DNA of 37,623 nucleotides, taken from the IMG/VR virus record IMGVR_UViG_3300022871_000047, positions 1-37,623 of that record; one strand, written 5' to 3'. The number at the start of each line of letters is the position of its first letter. Position 1 is the first letter of the stretch. Below, in pieces: positions 4,153-37,622 of the stretch. The notes beneath the pieces are model-generated. The model did no database searches and was not told where the DNA came from. It saw nothing but the letters and a program-made list of their open reading frames with translations. Position numbers and translations under genes: made by a program. The stretch is from a virus.

Positions 4153-4335
4153 TTATAATCTTCTTAAAGCATTGCCTACTGTTCTATTTACTTTTTGCAT
4201 AGCTATTTCTTTTTTACAATACTCCCCAAACTCTTTAAAACTTTTAAAAGTCATAGGTTTTCTCTTATCCTTATATACTATTTTAATCTTTCCTTTATAT
4301 GTTTTAGATAACATATTATTAACATAAATAGCCAT
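4153..4335 (-). CDS. small basic protein, unknown
   Basis: A 60-residue, strongly basic protein (many Lys/Arg, predicted pI high) with no recognised motif. Charge suggests nucleic-acid binding, but nothing in the sequence proves it. It ends 12 bases before the HNH gene and is the first gene after the convergent terminator at 4626-4655, so it should need its own promoter. I could not find a convincing one. Confidence 0.55.
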   Translation of the reverse strand: MAIYVNNMLSKTYKGKIKIVYKDKRKPMTFKSFKEFGEYCKKEIAMQKVNRTVGNALRRL

Positions 4336-4501
4336 ATCTTTGACTTTATTCTACAATATGGTTCTATCTATGCGTTATGTTGTTGATAACTTTTTTAATA
4401 TATTTCTCTTTTAAAAGATTATTCTTGTTTAAAATACTATTTAGCTAATCTTAGCTTATTAATTAAGGGACTTATGCCCTTTAAAAATGCTATAAATATG
4501 C

Positions 4502-4507
4502 TATAAT
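4502..4507 (+). promoter_or_regulatory. candidate plus-strand extended -10 promoter
   Basis: ATGCTATAAT on the plus strand gives a consensus -10 with an upstream TG (extended -10), the same form as the minus-strand promoters here. The -35 is poor (CTTTAA, near 4479-4484). An inverted repeat AAGGG-7 nt-CCCTT at 4465-4482 overlaps the -35 region and could be an operator. Confidence 0.4.
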
Positions 4508-4533
4508 GTATATATAACTATTAAAATAAATAT

Positions 4534-4623
4534 ATGAACAAATATTCTCTTGGTTGGCAAGCTTGCCGACATATAAAATGGTATAGAATATGGCTATTAG
4601 GTGGTATTTCATATCAATTATAA
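4534..4623 (+). CDS. plus-strand microprotein, 29 aa
   Basis: ATG to TAA encodes 29 residues, aromatic and basic in the first half (GWQACRHIKWYRIW) and hydrophobic after (LLGGISY). The reading frame sits about 27 bases after an extended -10 element and ends three bases before a terminator hairpin, so promoter, ORF and terminator form a compact unit on the opposite strand. No Shine-Dalgarno is visible. It could be a membrane-active peptide, or the unit may simply be an RNA. Confidence 0.35.
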   Translation: MNKYSLGWQACRHIKWYRIWLLGGISYQL

Positions 4624-6890: not shown

Positions 6891-7547
6891 TCATATTAAA
6901 TTTAAAGCCTCAGCACTTTTACGACTTATTGTTTTAGTTTTCCCTTCTACGGTTATTTCTACTTCATCAGACTTTTCATCTTCTAATTTTGGATTACAAG
7001 CTAGCAATTCATAATCCTCATTCATTTCTATATGTTCTATTTTTTCTTCTTTCTTTTTATAGTGATAAAAACAACCTCCTATAAGTTTTAATTTGCCAGA
7101 AACCCACGCATTGCCAGAAACCCACGCATTGCCATAAACCCTCGCATTGCCAGAAACCTCCGCATTGCCATAAACCCTCGCATTGTCATAAACCCTCGCA
7201 TCGCCATAAACCTCCGCATTGTCATAAACCCACGCATCGCCATAAACCCACGCATCGCCATAAACCCTCGCATCGCCATAAACCCTCGCATCGCCAGAAA
7301 CCTCCGCATCGCCATAAACCCACGCATCGCCATAAACCCACGCATCGCCATAAACCTCCGCATCGCCATAAACCCTCGCATCGCCAGAAACCCACGCATT
7401 ATTTTCTTGTGATAAGTTTTCTTCTTTTTCTATCCAACCTCCTTTTTCTCCTTTTTTAACATCGTTAAAATCTTTTAAAGCCTCTATCTGATATAAAGTT
7501 ATTCCAAAATATTCCTTTGTTTTTTTTGTAAGTTTAAATTTGTTCAT
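6891..7547 (-). CDS. YdcK-like hexapeptide-repeat (left-handed beta-helix) protein
   Basis: 218 residues. The N-terminus (LTKKTKEYFGITLYQIEAL, GGWIEKEENLSQ) matches the start typical of YdcK-like phage proteins. Seventeen hexapeptides follow, of form [ND]-A-[WRE]-V-[YS]-[GD], expected to wind into a left-handed beta-helix. The C-terminal 70 residues are a separate charged domain. Hexapeptide helices occur in acyltransferases, but no catalytic His is evident, so a structural or binding role is as likely. The DNA is a 306-bp minisatellite, so the repeat number may change easily. Confidence 0.85.
   Translation of the reverse strand: MNKFKLTKKTKEYFGITLYQIEALKDFNDVKKGEKGGWIEKEENLSQENNAWVSGDARVYGDAEVYGDAWVYGDAWVYGDAEVSGDARVYGDARVYGDAWVYGDAWVYDNAEVYGDARVYDNARVYGNAEVSGNARVYGNAWVSGNAWVSGKLKLIGGCFYHYKKKEEKIEHIEMNEDYELLACNPKLEDEKSDEVEITVEGKTKTISRKSAEALNLI
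7094..7399 (-). repeat. 18-bp tandem repeat (minisatellite), ~17 units
   Basis: Each 18-bp unit encodes one hexapeptide. The codons for Ala (GCG), Val (GTT) and Gly (GGC) never vary. Differences fall at three places only: Trp/Arg/Glu, Tyr/Ser and Asn/Asp. The absence of synonymous change suggests recent expansion or gene conversion. Confidence 0.9.
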
Positions 7548-10767: not shown

Positions 10768-11423
10768 AATAAAGTTTTTTGTCTAGTTTGGTCTATTATT
10801 CTTTGCATAGCTTGATTATAATATTCTTCGTCTATTTCTATTCCAGTAAGTTCAAAGTCCATATAATGACAAGCTATTGCTATGCTTCCACTTCCTAAAT
10901 GAGTGTCTAATATTTTATCTCCCTCTTTAGCATAATTTTTAAGAAGCCATTTATATAATGCTACTGGTTTTTGAGTTGGATGTATTCTAGTATTTTTAAC
11001 TCTCATTGATGGATAACTAAAACAATTTGATTTAATTTGTAAAGATTGAAAAGCAAATTCACCACTACTAAAATTATTCTCTCCCATTTGTTTATCCCAA
11101 TAAATCCAGCCATAGCCATTTACTAAATAAGAACAAAAATAGTTAGCTCCCCAAATAATCTGATTTTTACTTACCCTTTGTAATTCTTTAAAATATTCTT
11201 CCGTTGGTGGTTTATTATCCCAATTTTTTACAGTATATTGATTTTCATTTTTTCTTTTATATGTATTAGGTCTATTAGGTTTTGTTCTTACTTTTTGATT
11301 ATCCATACCAATTCCAAATGGAGGGTCTACAATCGCTAAATCATAATAGTTATCTTCTGTATCTTTCATTAAATCCATACAATCTCCTAAATGGAATGTT
11401 CCTTTATTTATTAAGTCTTTCAT
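10764..11423 (-). CDS. DNA methyltransferase A (N4/N6, DPPF)
   Basis: 219 residues. Catalytic DPPF is at 33-36 and the AdoMet-binding region (ILDTHLGSGS, 171-180) comes after it, the order of beta-class amino-methyltransferases. HPTQKP (148-153) is typical of the class. It transfers methyl groups to adenine N6 or cytosine N4, probably shielding phage DNA from host restriction. Next to a second methyltransferase; the two share the C-terminal RQK-x-LL. Confidence 0.85.
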   Translation of the reverse strand: MKDLINKGTFHLGDCMDLMKDTEDNYYDLAIVDPPFGIGMDNQKVRTKPNRPNTYKRKNENQYTVKNWDNKPPTEEYFKELQRVSKNQIIWGANYFCSYLVNGYGWIYWDKQMGENNFSSGEFAFQSLQIKSNCFSYPSMRVKNTRIHPTQKPVALYKWLLKNYAKEGDKILDTHLGSGSIAIACHYMDFELTGIEIDEEYYNQAMQRIIDQTRQKTLL

Positions 11424-11428
11424 ATAAG

Positions 11429-12085
11429 TTATAATAAAGGTTTTTGACGCAAACGTTCACGAGCGATAGAGCAATATTCTTTAGATATTTCTATTCCTAT
11501 AAAGTTTCTACCTAAATCTTGAGCTGCTTTTGTTGTAGTTCCGCTTCCATTAAAAGGGTCTAATATTATATCTGTTTCCTTTACGCTACCTCTTAAAAGA
11601 ATTTTACGCCATAAATCCATTGGTTTTGAACAACTATGGTCTATCCATTTTTCAGTTCTTTCATTAGACATTATAATATCTGGTCTTGAACCCATTTTAT
11701 TTTCTAAATATGGGTCTTTTCCGTAAGCTAGTATCGGTTGCCAACAACTAAATCCCCAAGGGTTCATTCCAGCACCAGCAGTAGAAACCCAAGCTAATAT
11801 CCACTTTGACTTAGGATATAATTGCAAATTCATTATTCCTGTTGTTATTAATGCTCTTTTACTAATTCTTAATATTTCAGGAATAGCCTTACTGACAAGT
11901 TTTTTTAAATTTTCAACACTATCCTCATAATTATCATATTCATAATTTACGCCATAAGGAAAATCTGTTAAAACTAAATCAATACTTTTGTCTTTAATAT
12001 AACGCATAGCTTCTAAGCAGTCTGCATTATATATTGTGTTTTCCTTTACACCCTCTTTTTTAATATTATCTATTGTTTTTATCAT
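11429..12085 (-). CDS. DNA methyltransferase B (N4/N6, DFPY)
   Basis: 218 residues. The catalytic motif is DFPY (41-44) and the AdoMet motif DPFNGSGTT (176-184) follows, so it is beta-class. HSCSKP (150-155) corresponds to the HxxQKP region. The N-terminus before NADCLEAM looks new: the relic at 12649-12729 has a different start leading into a similar ADCLDIM. The HNH cassette upstream overlaps its start by 20 bases. Target sequence unknown. Confidence 0.85.
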   Translation of the reverse strand: MIKTIDNIKKEGVKENTIYNADCLEAMRYIKDKSIDLVLTDFPYGVNYEYDNYEDSVENLKKLVSKAIPEILRISKRALITTGIMNLQLYPKSKWILAWVSTAGAGMNPWGFSCWQPILAYGKDPYLENKMGSRPDIIMSNERTEKWIDHSCSKPMDLWRKILLRGSVKETDIILDPFNGSGTTTKAAQDLGRNFIGIEISKEYCSIARERLRQKPLL

Positions 12086-12605
12086 AAATAACTTTACCTA
12101 TTTTTAACATCTCATTTTTATTAAAATAATTTCCTTTTATTGAATTACACCGATAACAAGCTAAGACTATATTGCTGATTATATATCCGATATTATTATC
12201 AACTCTATCAATTGTTAATCTGTTTGCCTTGTTATTTATATTATCATTTTCGTTTTTAATATCTTCAAAAGTTCTTTTACAATAAAAACATATTTTATCT
12301 TTATCAACATACCATTTAGAAAAATCTTCATTTGTTATATTAAATTCAATATTTCTTTTTTTAGCACTTGTTCTGATAACTTCTAATATTCCTGCTGGAT
12401 TGTTATATCTCCATTCTCTACGATATTTTCTGTATTTTTCCTTATTAGTTTCAAAATATAATTTTCTACTTTTTTTACACTTTTCTTTGTTATTTTCATA
12501 ATACTTTTTAGCAGATTGTCTTTTAGCTTCTTTGTACTTTGGGTCATTTTTTCTTTTATGATAATATTCTAATTGCCATTTATTACGTTGTTCTTTTGTC
12601 CACAT
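12066..12605 (-). CDS. HNH homing-type endonuclease cassette (MTase locus)
   Basis: 179 residues. A long Lys/Arg/Asn/Tyr-rich N-terminal region (KYKEAKRQSAKKYYENNK) precedes an HNH core: ICFYCKRTF ... LTIDRVDNNIGY ... LACYRCNSIKGN. It has its own promoter (12632-12660) and leader, and an upstream methyltransferase relic lies in front of it. This looks like a mobile gene that landed in a methyltransferase, leaving a short front piece and a new start for the rest. Confidence 0.85.
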   Translation of the reverse strand: MWTKEQRNKWQLEYYHKRKNDPKYKEAKRQSAKKYYENNKEKCKKSRKLYFETNKEKYRKYRREWRYNNPAGILEVIRTSAKKRNIEFNITNEDFSKWYVDKDKICFYCKRTFEDIKNENDNINNKANRLTIDRVDNNIGYIISNIVLACYRCNSIKGNYFNKNEMLKIGKVIYDKNNR

Positions 12606-12631
12606 AAATCAAGATTAATAATTATATCTTA

Positions 12632-34577: not shown

Positions 34578-37500
34578 TTATTCTCTAGTCCATTCTCCGA
34601 AAGCTGTAAAGCTAACGTAGTCTGGTGCTCCTGTTATTGTTCCAATTTTCATTTGAACTAATTCATCTGCCAATATTACTGATGTTGCTGTCATCGTTGT
34701 ATCAGTTGTTGCCGTAGTAGCACAAGTTATAGCGTCTAAATCACCCTGTGTAGCTCCTGACGGTGTTAAAACAACTGATGTAGCAGTAGTAACATAACAA
34801 GAATAGCTTGTGATAGTATATCCGTCTTTTTCAAGTGGTACAGGCAAACTACCTCCGCTAAACCATTCTGGACTTGTAGAAGCTAAAGTAAAACCAAATA
34901 TAGCTTCGTCTGTTCTAATAACATTAGCATCAGCTCCTAAAATTAGTTGGTTATCTGTTGTGTCGTGTGCTAATACGCCATCGGCTGCGACTGATGGGGC
35001 GGCTGCATTAGGTATCTCTAATATTACACTGGCAGTTCCAAAATCATAAGTTCCTGCTGAAGCTATATCACCACCAAGTCTAAGAAAATCATCATCAACA
35101 TCTATCTCTAAAGTTCCCGCCCCTGTTGTACAAGTAAGGCTATCAGCACAATTAAGAGTAGCAAATACTGGGTCGTTAGCACTATCTCCTATAAGAAGTT
35201 GTCCATCTGTTCCTACTGTAAGGGCTGTAAAAGCACTTGCTCCAGCACCAACTAATACTCCGTGGTCTGTAAAGGTTGAAGCTCCTGAACCTCCGTTGGC
35301 TACTGTTAAGTCTGTATCTAATGTCAATGCTCCAGTAAATCTTCCTGTTCCAGCCACATCTAATTTATATATGGGATTGGTCGTCCCGATGCCGACGTTG
35401 CCGTTATTTAATGTTATCCCCGTTCCAACTCCCAAACGGGTATCATAAATATCTAATCTGTCACCTGCTGAATTATATTGAAAATAAAACTGCCCACTGC
35501 TTCCAAGAATCATTGCTTTATTACTTCCCACGAGAAGATGACCAGTAAACATAGCCGAAGTATAATCTCCTCCAAATCGTAAGTTTCCCCAAGTGTCTAT
35601 ATACTGGGATGCATACCTTATCCCTCCAATATCTGAGCCATTTCCATATATTCTAAACTCTGGATGGGCTGTTCCATCGCCAACCTGTAAAAGTGAATTT
35701 GGACCCGTCGTCCCGATGCCGACGTTGCCGTTGTTTTGAATCGTCATCTGCCTTACTCTATTATCTCCATCATCATCAGCTCTACCTAAAAATAAATTAT
35801 CATCCGATGAACCAATAAATTTTATTTTTTTCTCCACTGCTGAATTTCCATCTTCCACATAAATATATGCTGAGGTTGCTCCCTTAACATGTAGTAATTC
35901 GTCTGGTTCAGTTGTCCCGATGCCGAGGTTTCCGTTATCTAGCATCGTTACTTTTGCCGTTCCTGATGAGTTTTGAGTTTGAAAACCAATTCCCGTTCCT
36001 GTTCCAGCACCTTTGACAATTAATTTGCCTAAAGGAGCCGTCGTGCCGATGCCGACGTTGCCTGTGTTATTTACCATCATTTTTGTTGTTGTACCAATTC
36101 TAAACAAGATATTTCCATCGCTATCTCCGTCGCTGTCAGCGATGACATTGGTATCGCTAATATTCGCCAAAGAGTCAAAGAGCCAAAGAGTCGAATCATC
36201 AGTATCTTTCAGACAACGAACAGAAAAGCCGTACGCCTGAACGTACGGGTAGCGGTAGACAGTGGAGTGACTAGAGGTCAGGTGGTGCGTCCAAGCATTA
36301 GCCCCAGACACGGAAGACGACCAAAAGTACGTGTGCGCGCCCGAATTGATGAAAGCGCCATTAGCATCGCGGCGGCCGGAAAGGACTGCTTCAAACCCTG
36401 AAGAACCCGATTCCTTTAAAGCGGTTCCTGCTGGGGCACAATCCCAAACATTTGAACGGTCGGCATCACAGGTACCTCCTTCGGCAGTTAAGTATTGGTC
36501 TAGAGTGTGTTGTTCTGCATCTGTAGGGATATGCCAACCTGTGGAACAAATACCTTGAGTGCCTTCTGTTTCTGTGTATTGCATCATTTCATCCCATTGG
36601 TAGAGACCTCCGTCAGTTGTACAATTGGCTTCGTCGTCACCATAACAGTATTTTTCTATTGTTCCTGTGTCTGCCATCTCATCGACTCCATCTATTCTAG
36701 TTCCAACATTAAGGTTCTCAGCCATCCAGCATTGGTTGCCTATTTTTACCACATCGTAAACATTACCATCAGTGTCTACCATGGTAGCAGGACAAATTGT
36801 TCCTACTGCTTGCCAATTAGTGTCACCATTGTCTTTAGTTTCTATCACTCCTAATCTATTACGAAGACCATAGCCTGTTTCTCCTACTATATCTCCAAAG
36901 TTTAGATAACGAGAGTTGTTGGTTAATCCACTAAATATTCCATTGCCGTATACATCTAAAGTTGAAAGTGGGGTGGTTGTGCCAATACCCAAATTTCCTT
37001 GGATTATTACTCCATTCGTCGGTGCTATATTATTGTAATCTGCACCTACACTTAAACCACCACTGACTGCTAGTGCACTGCTTGGAGTCGTCGTCCCGAT
37101 GCCGACGTTGCCGCCGCCATTGAAAATGACATCTCCCGTATTAGATATATTAAAATCATCTCTCCCATCTTTTTCATTTCGAACAAAAAATCCACTTGTC
37201 CCTGACCTTAGTGACCAGTTGTCTATATCACCAGCATTAGTATTTTCTATTGCAAGATAAGTATTGACAGTAGCAGAGCTTAAAGTTAGAAGTTGACTCG
37301 GCTCCGTCGTCCCGATGCCGACGTTGCCTGAATTATAATAAATATCACTACCAGTTGTAGTCCATTGAGAAGATATTTTGTTATTAAAAGTTATAAAGTC
37401 AGATGCAGTTAAACAACCAAAAGTAGAAGTATCAGCTGTGTCGCAGTTTAAATCACCACCCGCAACTGTTAATCCTAACCCAGCAAAATCTGTTATGGTA

Positions 37501-37622
37501 TCACTTGAAACAGAAATACCTGAAGTAAAAGTTTGTAAATCAGACCAAGTATTAGGAGTTGTAGTCCCAAAGGCTAAATCTAAAGTTCCTGATGTTGTTA
37601 TAGTCCCACCAGTAATAGGATA
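34578..37622 (-). CDS. tail fibre with NVGIGTT repeats and FISUMP/C-lectin-like domain (5' end cut by window)
   Basis: The frame is open to the window edge, so at least 1014 residues; a TTG at 36992 is internal. Seven NVGIGTT-x-P type repeats form the shaft. A FISUMP/DUF1566-like domain lies at about 36200-36800 (DGNVYDVVKIGNQCWMAENL ... YFWSSSVSGANAW ... GFSVRCLKD), expected to fold like a C-type lectin and bind ligands. A beta-rich tail closes the protein. Candidate DGR variable region at 36205-36375. Host recognition is the likely role. Confidence 0.75.
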   Translation of the reverse strand, partial: YPITGGTITTSGTLDLAFGTTTPNTWSDLQTFTSGISVSSDTITDFAGLGLTVAGGDLNCDTADTSTFGCLTASDFITFNNKISSQWTTTGSDIYYNSGNVGIGTTEPSQLLTLSSATVNTYLAIENTNAGDIDNWSLRSGTSGFFVRNEKDGRDDFNISNTGDVIFNGGGNVGIGTTTPSSALAVSGGLSVGADYNNIAPTNGVIIQGNLGIGTTTPLSTLDVYGNGIFSGLTNNSRYLNFGDIVGETGYGLRNRLGVIETKDNGDTNWQAVGTICPATMVDTDGNVYDVVKIGNQCWMAENLNVGTRIDGVDEMADTGTIEKYCYGDDEANCTTDGGLYQWDEMMQYTETEGTQGICSTGWHIPTDAEQHTLDQYLTAEGGTCDADRSNVWDCAPAGTALKESGSSGFEAVLSGRRDANGAFINSGAHTYFWSSSVSGANAWTHHLTSSHSTVYRYPYVQAYGFSVRCLKDTDDSTLWLFDSLANISDTNVIADSDGDSDGNILFRIGTTTKMMVNNTGNVGIGTTAPLGKLIVKGAGTGTGIGFQTQNSSGTAKVTMLDNGNLGIGTTEPDELLHVKGATSAYIYVEDGNSAVEKKIKFIGSSDDNLFLGRADDDGDNRVRQMTIQNNGNVGIGTTGPNSLLQVGDGTAHPEFRIYGNGSDIGGIRYASQYIDTWGNLRFGGDYTSAMFTGHLLVGSNKAMILGSSGQFYFQYNSAGDRLDIYDTRLGVGTGITLNNGNVGIGTTNPIYKLDVAGTGRFTGALTLDTDLTVANGGSGASTFTDHGVLVGAGASAFTALTVGTDGQLLIGDSANDPVFATLNCADSLTCTTGAGTLEIDVDDDFLRLGGDIASAGTYDFGTASVILEIPNAAAPSVAADGVLAHDTTDNQLILGADANVIRTDEAIFGFTLASTSPEWFSGGSLPVPLEKDGYTITSYSCYVTTATSVVLTPSGATQGDLDAITCATTATTDTTMTATSVILADELVQMKIGTITGAPDYVSFTAFGEWTRE
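35381..37328 (-). repeat. six GC-rich repeats encoding NVGIGTT turns
   Basis: Near-identical ~23-bp stretches (GGCAACGTCGGCATCGGGAC on the coding strand, with slight variants) recur at about 35381, 35707, 35911, 36041, 37089 and 37306. The seventh NLGIGTT copy (near 36980) is AT-rich and diverged. They stand out in AT-rich DNA and offer homologous sites for shuffling fibre modules. Confidence 0.85.
36205..36375 (-). other. candidate DGR variable region
   Basis: In the last third of the FISUMP domain, coding-strand adenine falls to 15% (18/120 by hand count at 36241-36360), GC rises to ~57%, and codons ending in C cluster (TTC, ATC, CAC, TAC, TCC, CGC). That is the footprint left by adenine-specific mutagenic retrohoming into a lectin-like fold. 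No reverse transcriptase or template repeat lies in the window, so this is unproved. Confidence 0.5.

Follow-up and report, generated by a model that had tools for sequence, protein, structure and literature searches.

The window analysed here is the whole of the IMG/VR virus record IMGVR_UViG_3300022871_000047, a linear stretch of 37,623 bp in which nearly all of the large genes lie on the minus strand. Its right-hand end is taken up by a tail-fibre-like open reading frame (ORF) with an internal FISUMP domain, and this domain ends in a putative DGR variable region (VR), which as a whole covers window positions 36204-36383 on the minus strand. The features concerned are these:

34578..37622, minus strand: tail-fibre-like ORF with many GNVGIGTT repeats and an internal FISUMP domain; 1014 aa seen, the 5' end lying past the right edge
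36499..36989, minus strand: part of the fibre upstream of the VR, with 94.7% identity to the fibre of a different phage (G002, locus L002)
36207..36749, minus strand: Fib_succ_major (FISUMP) domain, PF09603, from Pfam and a confident AlphaFold model (mean pLDDT 93)
36231..36383, minus strand: 153-nt tract of the putative DGR VR, differing from the VRs of an unrelated phage gene almost exclusively at template-A sites
36204..36230, minus strand: 3' end of the VR (GFSVRCLKD), in an IMH-like position; 8/27 mismatches to the unrelated gene at locus L126, 6 of them third-position
36169..36192, minus strand: octamer array (GACTCTTT GGCTCTTT GACTCTTT) inside the reading frame; 20/24 match to the consensus

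The fibre gene and its FISUMP domain

Pfam recognised one domain in the open 1014-aa ORF, Fib_succ_major (PF09603, E 1.9e-30, aa 292-472), which belongs to a family that serves as a DGR target in proven cassettes. A Foldseek comparison of the FISUMP model with the PDB gave mostly C-type lectins at non-significant scores (E at least 0.28), and the BFVD structure matches were two phage FISUMP proteins; a sequence search of solved structures found no relative of the domain. The fibre segment upstream of the VR differs from that of G002 by 26 changes, which fall on codon positions 1, 2 and 3 as 4, 3 and 19. This segment is inferred to be under purifying selection, its differences being mostly synonymous, and the fibre module, to judge by its close match in a different phage, is mobile between phages. 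In the VR, on the other hand, the changes between window and G002 VRs number 19, 16 and 11 at the three codon positions. Purifying selection upstream combined with first- and second-position change in the VR is the contrast expected of a DGR target.

The base composition points the same way. A sequence-only reading of the window had claimed a VR with a coding-strand adenine content of 15%, a GC content of ~57% and frequent NNC codons, and measurement bears these figures out: positions 36205-36375 have 15.8% A on the coding (minus) strand and 55.6% GC, and 33% of their codons are NNC, against 17% across the whole fibre ORF. Adenine is equally low in only 0.33% of the 171-bp windows of the record, and GC equally high in 0.27%, in a genome with 31.5% GC; third-position A falls to 2.4%. 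The coordinates 36205-36375 given in that reading do contain the low-A region, but the A-depleted patch extends back to ~36420, about 50 nt further upstream, which fits a longer VR. The sole other equally A-poor patch of the record is an 18-bp tandem repeat near 7200, where an ORF made of such repeats (6891-7547; at least 16 copies, GDARVY-type units) is open in two frames. The drop in A from the upstream domain to the VR is -0.16 in the window, and -0.06 to -0.18 in proven DGR VRs of the same family. However, some FISUMP domains without a detected template repeat (TR) show the same skew, so composition and homology to DGR targets, taken alone, are suggestive only.

A tract common to unrelated phage genes

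Stronger evidence comes from a DNA pattern built from the silent positions of the VR core, to which a template would have to conform as well, and sought in all viral contigs. Besides the window, it occurs in three viral records: G002 (IMGVR_UViG_3300025642_000028), G415 (3300022868_000141) and G416 (3300023235_001128), all occurrences being VRs. In each of the three it lies at the end of the gene for a protein of 165 aa, truncated by the contig start in G002, that is unrelated to the fibre outside its C-terminal domain. The start of G002 had been considered as the missing half of that phage's own fibre domain; this was rejected, since it is the end of the different, 165-aa gene.

Aligned with the copy in G416 (L126), the window has mismatches at 38 of 54 positions in the 5' flank, 21 of 153 in the tract, 8 of 27 in the last nine codons and 33 of 40 in the 3' flank. 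Only one third position differs in the 51 codons of the tract, whereas the templates of other DGRs give 18-28 of 49. One tract, diverged flanks and near-identical silent sites together argue that one template lineage has been copied into two genes that are unrelated and belong to different phages. The tract appears to end some nine codons short of the VR end, at the place expected for an IMH; the remaining stretch, 36204..36230, is gene-specific at silent sites and apparently outside what is copied.

Where, then, does the tract vary? AAY codons were defined from seven cellular TRs, with phage sequences excluded. Among the window, L125 and L126, 20 of the 28 first and second AAY positions vary, against 16 of 146 positions elsewhere (Fisher p 1.1e-10, a guide only, as the sites are not fully independent). 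An inferred template (GGCAACCGCAATACTAATGG...TTTTGGTCGTCTTCCGTGTCTGGGGCTAATGCTTGG...CTCTAGTAACTCCACTGTC, with A at the AAY codons) is common to the four VRs.

The 165-aa protein with its C-terminal DGR VR was seen at four loci (L126:2440-2937, L125:741-1238, L115:3-269 and L133:1-291). Where complete it has this length; it has no structural annotation and lies in a group of small ORFs that precede the terminase genes. Between L125 and L126, 6% of sites outside the tract are different, and 14% within it. By its sequence this protein is a DGR target of unknown function.

Cellular cassettes, octamer arrays and the search for an RT

FISUMP relatives were sought across one genome per species. Among the 430 found, the best two (62% and 61%) come from Ca. 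Moranbacteria. For TR detection, the C-terminal part of each domain was compared with the whole kept locus for a near-repeat with mismatches on the adenines of the second copy. Ten kept loci have such a VR/TR pair, 138-202 nt long, and a profile search found a reverse transcriptase (RT) in nine of them; in L023, 14 mismatches fall on TR adenines and none elsewhere. Target/VR, Avd, TR and RT, in that order, make L022 and L023 complete cassettes. The nearest cellular homologues of the window domain are thus complete CPR DGR cassettes. No gaps are needed to align the window VR with the cellular templates (consensus GNRNTDGSFANLSTNANFWSSTVSGSNAWNRNLNSTNATVNRNENDQANGFSVRCLKD, window GRRDANGAFINSGAHTYFWSSSVSGANAWTHHLTSSHSTVYRYPYVQAYGFSVRCLKD). 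Most templates have AAY at 14 codons; there the window residues are mostly other than Asn, and C or T is still the last base in 13 of the 14. The constant segments YFWSSS and YGFSVRCLKD picked out by the sequence-only reading are right in outline, being conserved codons of the cellular templates. In the Moranbacteria DGR of L022, the TR lies upstream of the RT, in frame and within one ORF (11032-12609). Two loci from records titled Woesearchaeota (L024 and L040) have FISUMP domains with a VR-like skew and a frame that continues past the domain; these are possibly other internal VRs.

The closest full-length viral relative of the window domain, L001 (61%), ends its protein with the domain. The order in L001 is FISUMP VR, stop codon, octamer array (GACTATTTGTCTATTTGACTATTT) and an Avd gene (4256-4597, bAvd; PF22296, E 4.7e-13; custom profile, E 6e-52). 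Neither RT nor TR was found in this 39.7-kb record, and L001 keeps the accessory protein Avd alone. Several cellular DGR targets have a similar array 3' of the VR stop codon. In the window, the array directly follows the VR and reads GACTCTTTGGCTCTTTGACTCTTT, and the TGA at the position of the L001 stop is out of frame. Scanning both strands of the window gave no other site of at least 18/24, and none of 1,020 random stretches of other loci reached 19/24. Across all loci there were 11 matches of at least 20/24, ten of which are directly 3' of a FISUMP VR, with or without Avd behind it (two of the ten, L051 and L121, are the same place). The consensus was picked after inspection, and an independent set is needed. 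A role as a promoter element of Avd was considered and is less likely, as the array follows VRs that have no Avd next to them. The VRs of the 165-aa gene have no octamer array, so it would not be needed by whatever writes those VRs. The array may nevertheless be regarded as a candidate cis element of this DGR lineage. The cis elements known to follow VRs are hairpins rich in GC (PMC3240598). No GC-rich hairpin or cruciform was found within 140 nt after the window VR, but such hairpins are also absent from several proven cassettes (e.g. L023, L061 and L106) and are thus not required in this lineage.

VRs are nearly always C-terminal (PMC8144416). The window VR does not meet this rule, being followed by ~540 aa in frame, and is unusual in its position internal to the gene. 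It seems as if a FISUMP/VR module of the C-terminal kind, 3' flank included, had been fused into a longer fibre to give the one in the window.

The RT had been predicted to lie beyond the right edge. A second locus, L005, shares 3,674 bp with the window at 100% and continues the same virus for another ~6 kb, taking in GroEL, GroES, portal and capsid and reaching the beginning of a further structural gene. (A phage GroEL-like chaperonin, window:3-1481 and L005:2194-4093, complete in L005 at 545 aa, is followed by a GroES-like gene, both between terminase and portal.) Thus ~43.7 kb of the window virus has been seen; the gap between L005 and the right edge, whose size is not known, is unseen. In the relatives L118 and L119, the matching stretch consists of a few small structural genes and the fibre start, from which it is inferred that the window fibre gene begins ~100-160 aa past the right edge, with structural genes before it. 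The unseen gap is therefore probably small. The prediction of a neighbouring RT has failed so far: none is encoded in what is seen of the virus. RVT_1 found nothing in the window or 14 related virus records, nor in L005, G001, G002, G415, G416, G031, G032 and G765, while the cellular controls were positive; a custom DGR-RT profile found its nine control loci and nothing in the window, L005 or related VR-bearing phage records. The adenine-biased near repeat expected alongside an RT is missing as well. A scan for such a repeat in the window returned only the VR and no template, the same scan found both positive controls and no TR in the related VR-bearing phage records, and BLAST of the inferred template against VR-bearing phage records gave only the VR. 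No Avd was found in the window.

The strongest single case of a VR-bearing phage without RT and TR is the record G765 (IMGVR_UViG_3300008255_000030), in which an exact 123-bp overlap of the two ends gives a 44,307-bp circle. Its VR belongs to a different template lineage and sits in a relative of the 165-aa protein; the circle has neither RT nor TR. (The record, to which L133, L134 and L135 belong, is classed as linear by IMG/VR despite the overlap.) The contig breaks at ...GGCTACCGC, at the VR start, on the base before the first AAY codon. VRs are known to break assemblies (PMC8008677). If the population is polymorphic from that base onward, the break would be a branch point in a de Bruijn assembly graph, an inference made without read data.

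What supplies the template and writes the variable region?

That positions 36204-36383 are a DGR VR is almost certain, as the sequence-only reading had proposed: the tract recurs in unrelated genes, it varies at template AAY codons, and its nearest homologues are complete CPR cassettes. Of the two conditions that were jointly to overturn that reading, the lack of an RT or template holds so far, and the lack of population variation is contradicted at the level of differences from phage to phage. A fast-evolving lectin loop, or a GC-rich domain acquired horizontally, is a scarcely credible alternative. FISUMP domains do have conserved motifs beside variable loops, and some without a TR are skewed, but neither version can explain the sharing of silent sites with an unrelated gene together with differences at AAY codons. 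Plain horizontal transfer was set aside on similar grounds, since the module is mobile and yet the tract pattern is left unexplained.

Given the observed VR homology, the A-site pattern and the tract in unrelated genes, and with no RT or TR in the records seen, the best explanation is that a phage without an RT has its VR diversified in trans, with a host DGR as the most likely agent. As a full account this is considered probable, with considerable room for doubt. Reverse transcription of a template RNA would put random bases opposite its adenines, and the resulting cDNA would take the place of the homologous tract at 36231-36383, so that ~14 codons of the lectin-like FISUMP domain change while its scaffold stays intact. 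RT and template would not be phage-borne and would be provided in trans, most likely by the host cell, from a cassette of the CPR/Patescibacteria type, to go by homology, and the same template lineage would also rewrite the second, unrelated gene in other phages. That mutagenesis continues in the window virus is inferred without read data, and that the fibre is receptor-binding and binds the host is inferred without binding data. A more specific version, in which one host template diversifies in trans at least two unrelated genes (the tail fibre and the small non-structural 165-aa protein) in several phages that carry only VRs, and in which the fibre VR works inside its gene because the downstream cis element became coding, is advanced only tentatively, the doubts being slightly the stronger.

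A host DGR is the most likely supplier because the nearest cassettes belong to cells, one template is common to several unlike phages and no viral contig has that template; the host itself is unidentified, and a co-resident mobile element remains possible. BLAST of ~1,150 sampled CPR genomes gave no match to the inferred template (best 78%), a pattern search of 384 genomes with two mismatches allowed gave none, and an exact search of viral contigs for the VR 3' end was likewise empty. The template pattern was also absent from viral and genome contigs, a weak negative, as it demanded GGC at codon 49, where the sister VRs read GGT. The scan of all genome contigs with this over-strict pattern does not, therefore, exclude a sequenced host. 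Supply in trans is weakened by the failure to find a matching cellular template, by a virus that is not closed, by the lack of a hairpin of the BPP-1 type and by the internal VR.

Several other histories could have left the same region behind. The VR may be a captured and frozen one, a diversified FISUMP/VR module taken by recombination from a DGR-bearing phage or cell and no longer rewritten. The mobility of the fibre module and the lack of RT and TR suit such a capture, and the internal position, with the array turned into coding sequence and the stop lost, might disable homing. However, the near-identity of silent sites with other phages' VRs implies that the last copying was recent compared with the flanks, and VRs without an RT are carried by more than one phage record, including a closed one, so a frozen VR is unlikely, if worth keeping in mind. 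A cis-acting phage DGR, with RT, Avd and template in the unsequenced gap, is possible insofar as the record is a fragment that is not joined to L005 at the right edge, and a phage-borne cassette with an RT does exist in this VR family (L106). It is nonetheless improbable, with only structural genes and the fibre start expected in the gap, a closed VR-bearing phage (G765) without RT and TR, and a template core that occurs in viral contigs only as VRs. Sharp tract boundaries on both sides would fit gene conversion equally well, and the diversity might then be made elsewhere, in host targets or a co-resident RT-bearing mobile element, and reach the phage only by homologous recombination of VR tracts. 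Against this, no donor tract identical to the window VR was found in the viral collections, and mutagenic retrohoming explains the boundaries in fewer steps, which leaves recombination alone with very little to recommend it.

If RT-less phages with recently rewritten VRs are real, phages can exploit, or suffer from, a host diversification machine, and the DGRs of CPR cells act on the phages of those cells, a coevolution in uncultured cells that could be tested from metagenomes. Surveys that seek an RT within a few kb of the repeat would then miss a class of targets; one survey method is indeed blind to remote targets (PMC8144416). A search of open-licence papers gave no account of a host RT acting on phage VRs, and the phage DGRs described in the literature examined all have their own RT.

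In the DGR of Bordetella phage BPP-1 (PMC3240598), as is inferred for the window, a phage receptor-binding protein, Mtd, is diversified at template adenines, the tract has a 3' boundary and a cis DNA element follows the VR. BPP-1, however, holds RT, Avd and TR in cis, its VR is C-terminal and a GC-rich hairpin stands 4 bp behind that VR; the window shows none of these. The DGRs of gut prophages and Quimbyviridae (PMC12629997, PMC8008677) have a remote VR or a second target outside the structural module, which resembles the situation described here, but their RT is in the same phage genome, whereas no RT was found in the window or the other VR-bearing phages. The FISUMP DGRs of Ca. Moranbacteria and other CPR (L022, L023, L025, L051, L059 and L061) have Avd, TR and RT beside a C-terminal VR, where the window has only a VR, inside a phage fibre gene. 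On the other hand, they share the target domain with the window (61-62% identity to L022 and L023), align gaplessly over the VR with the same AAY codon sites and a similar base skew, and in several cases have, as the window does, the octamer array after the VR.
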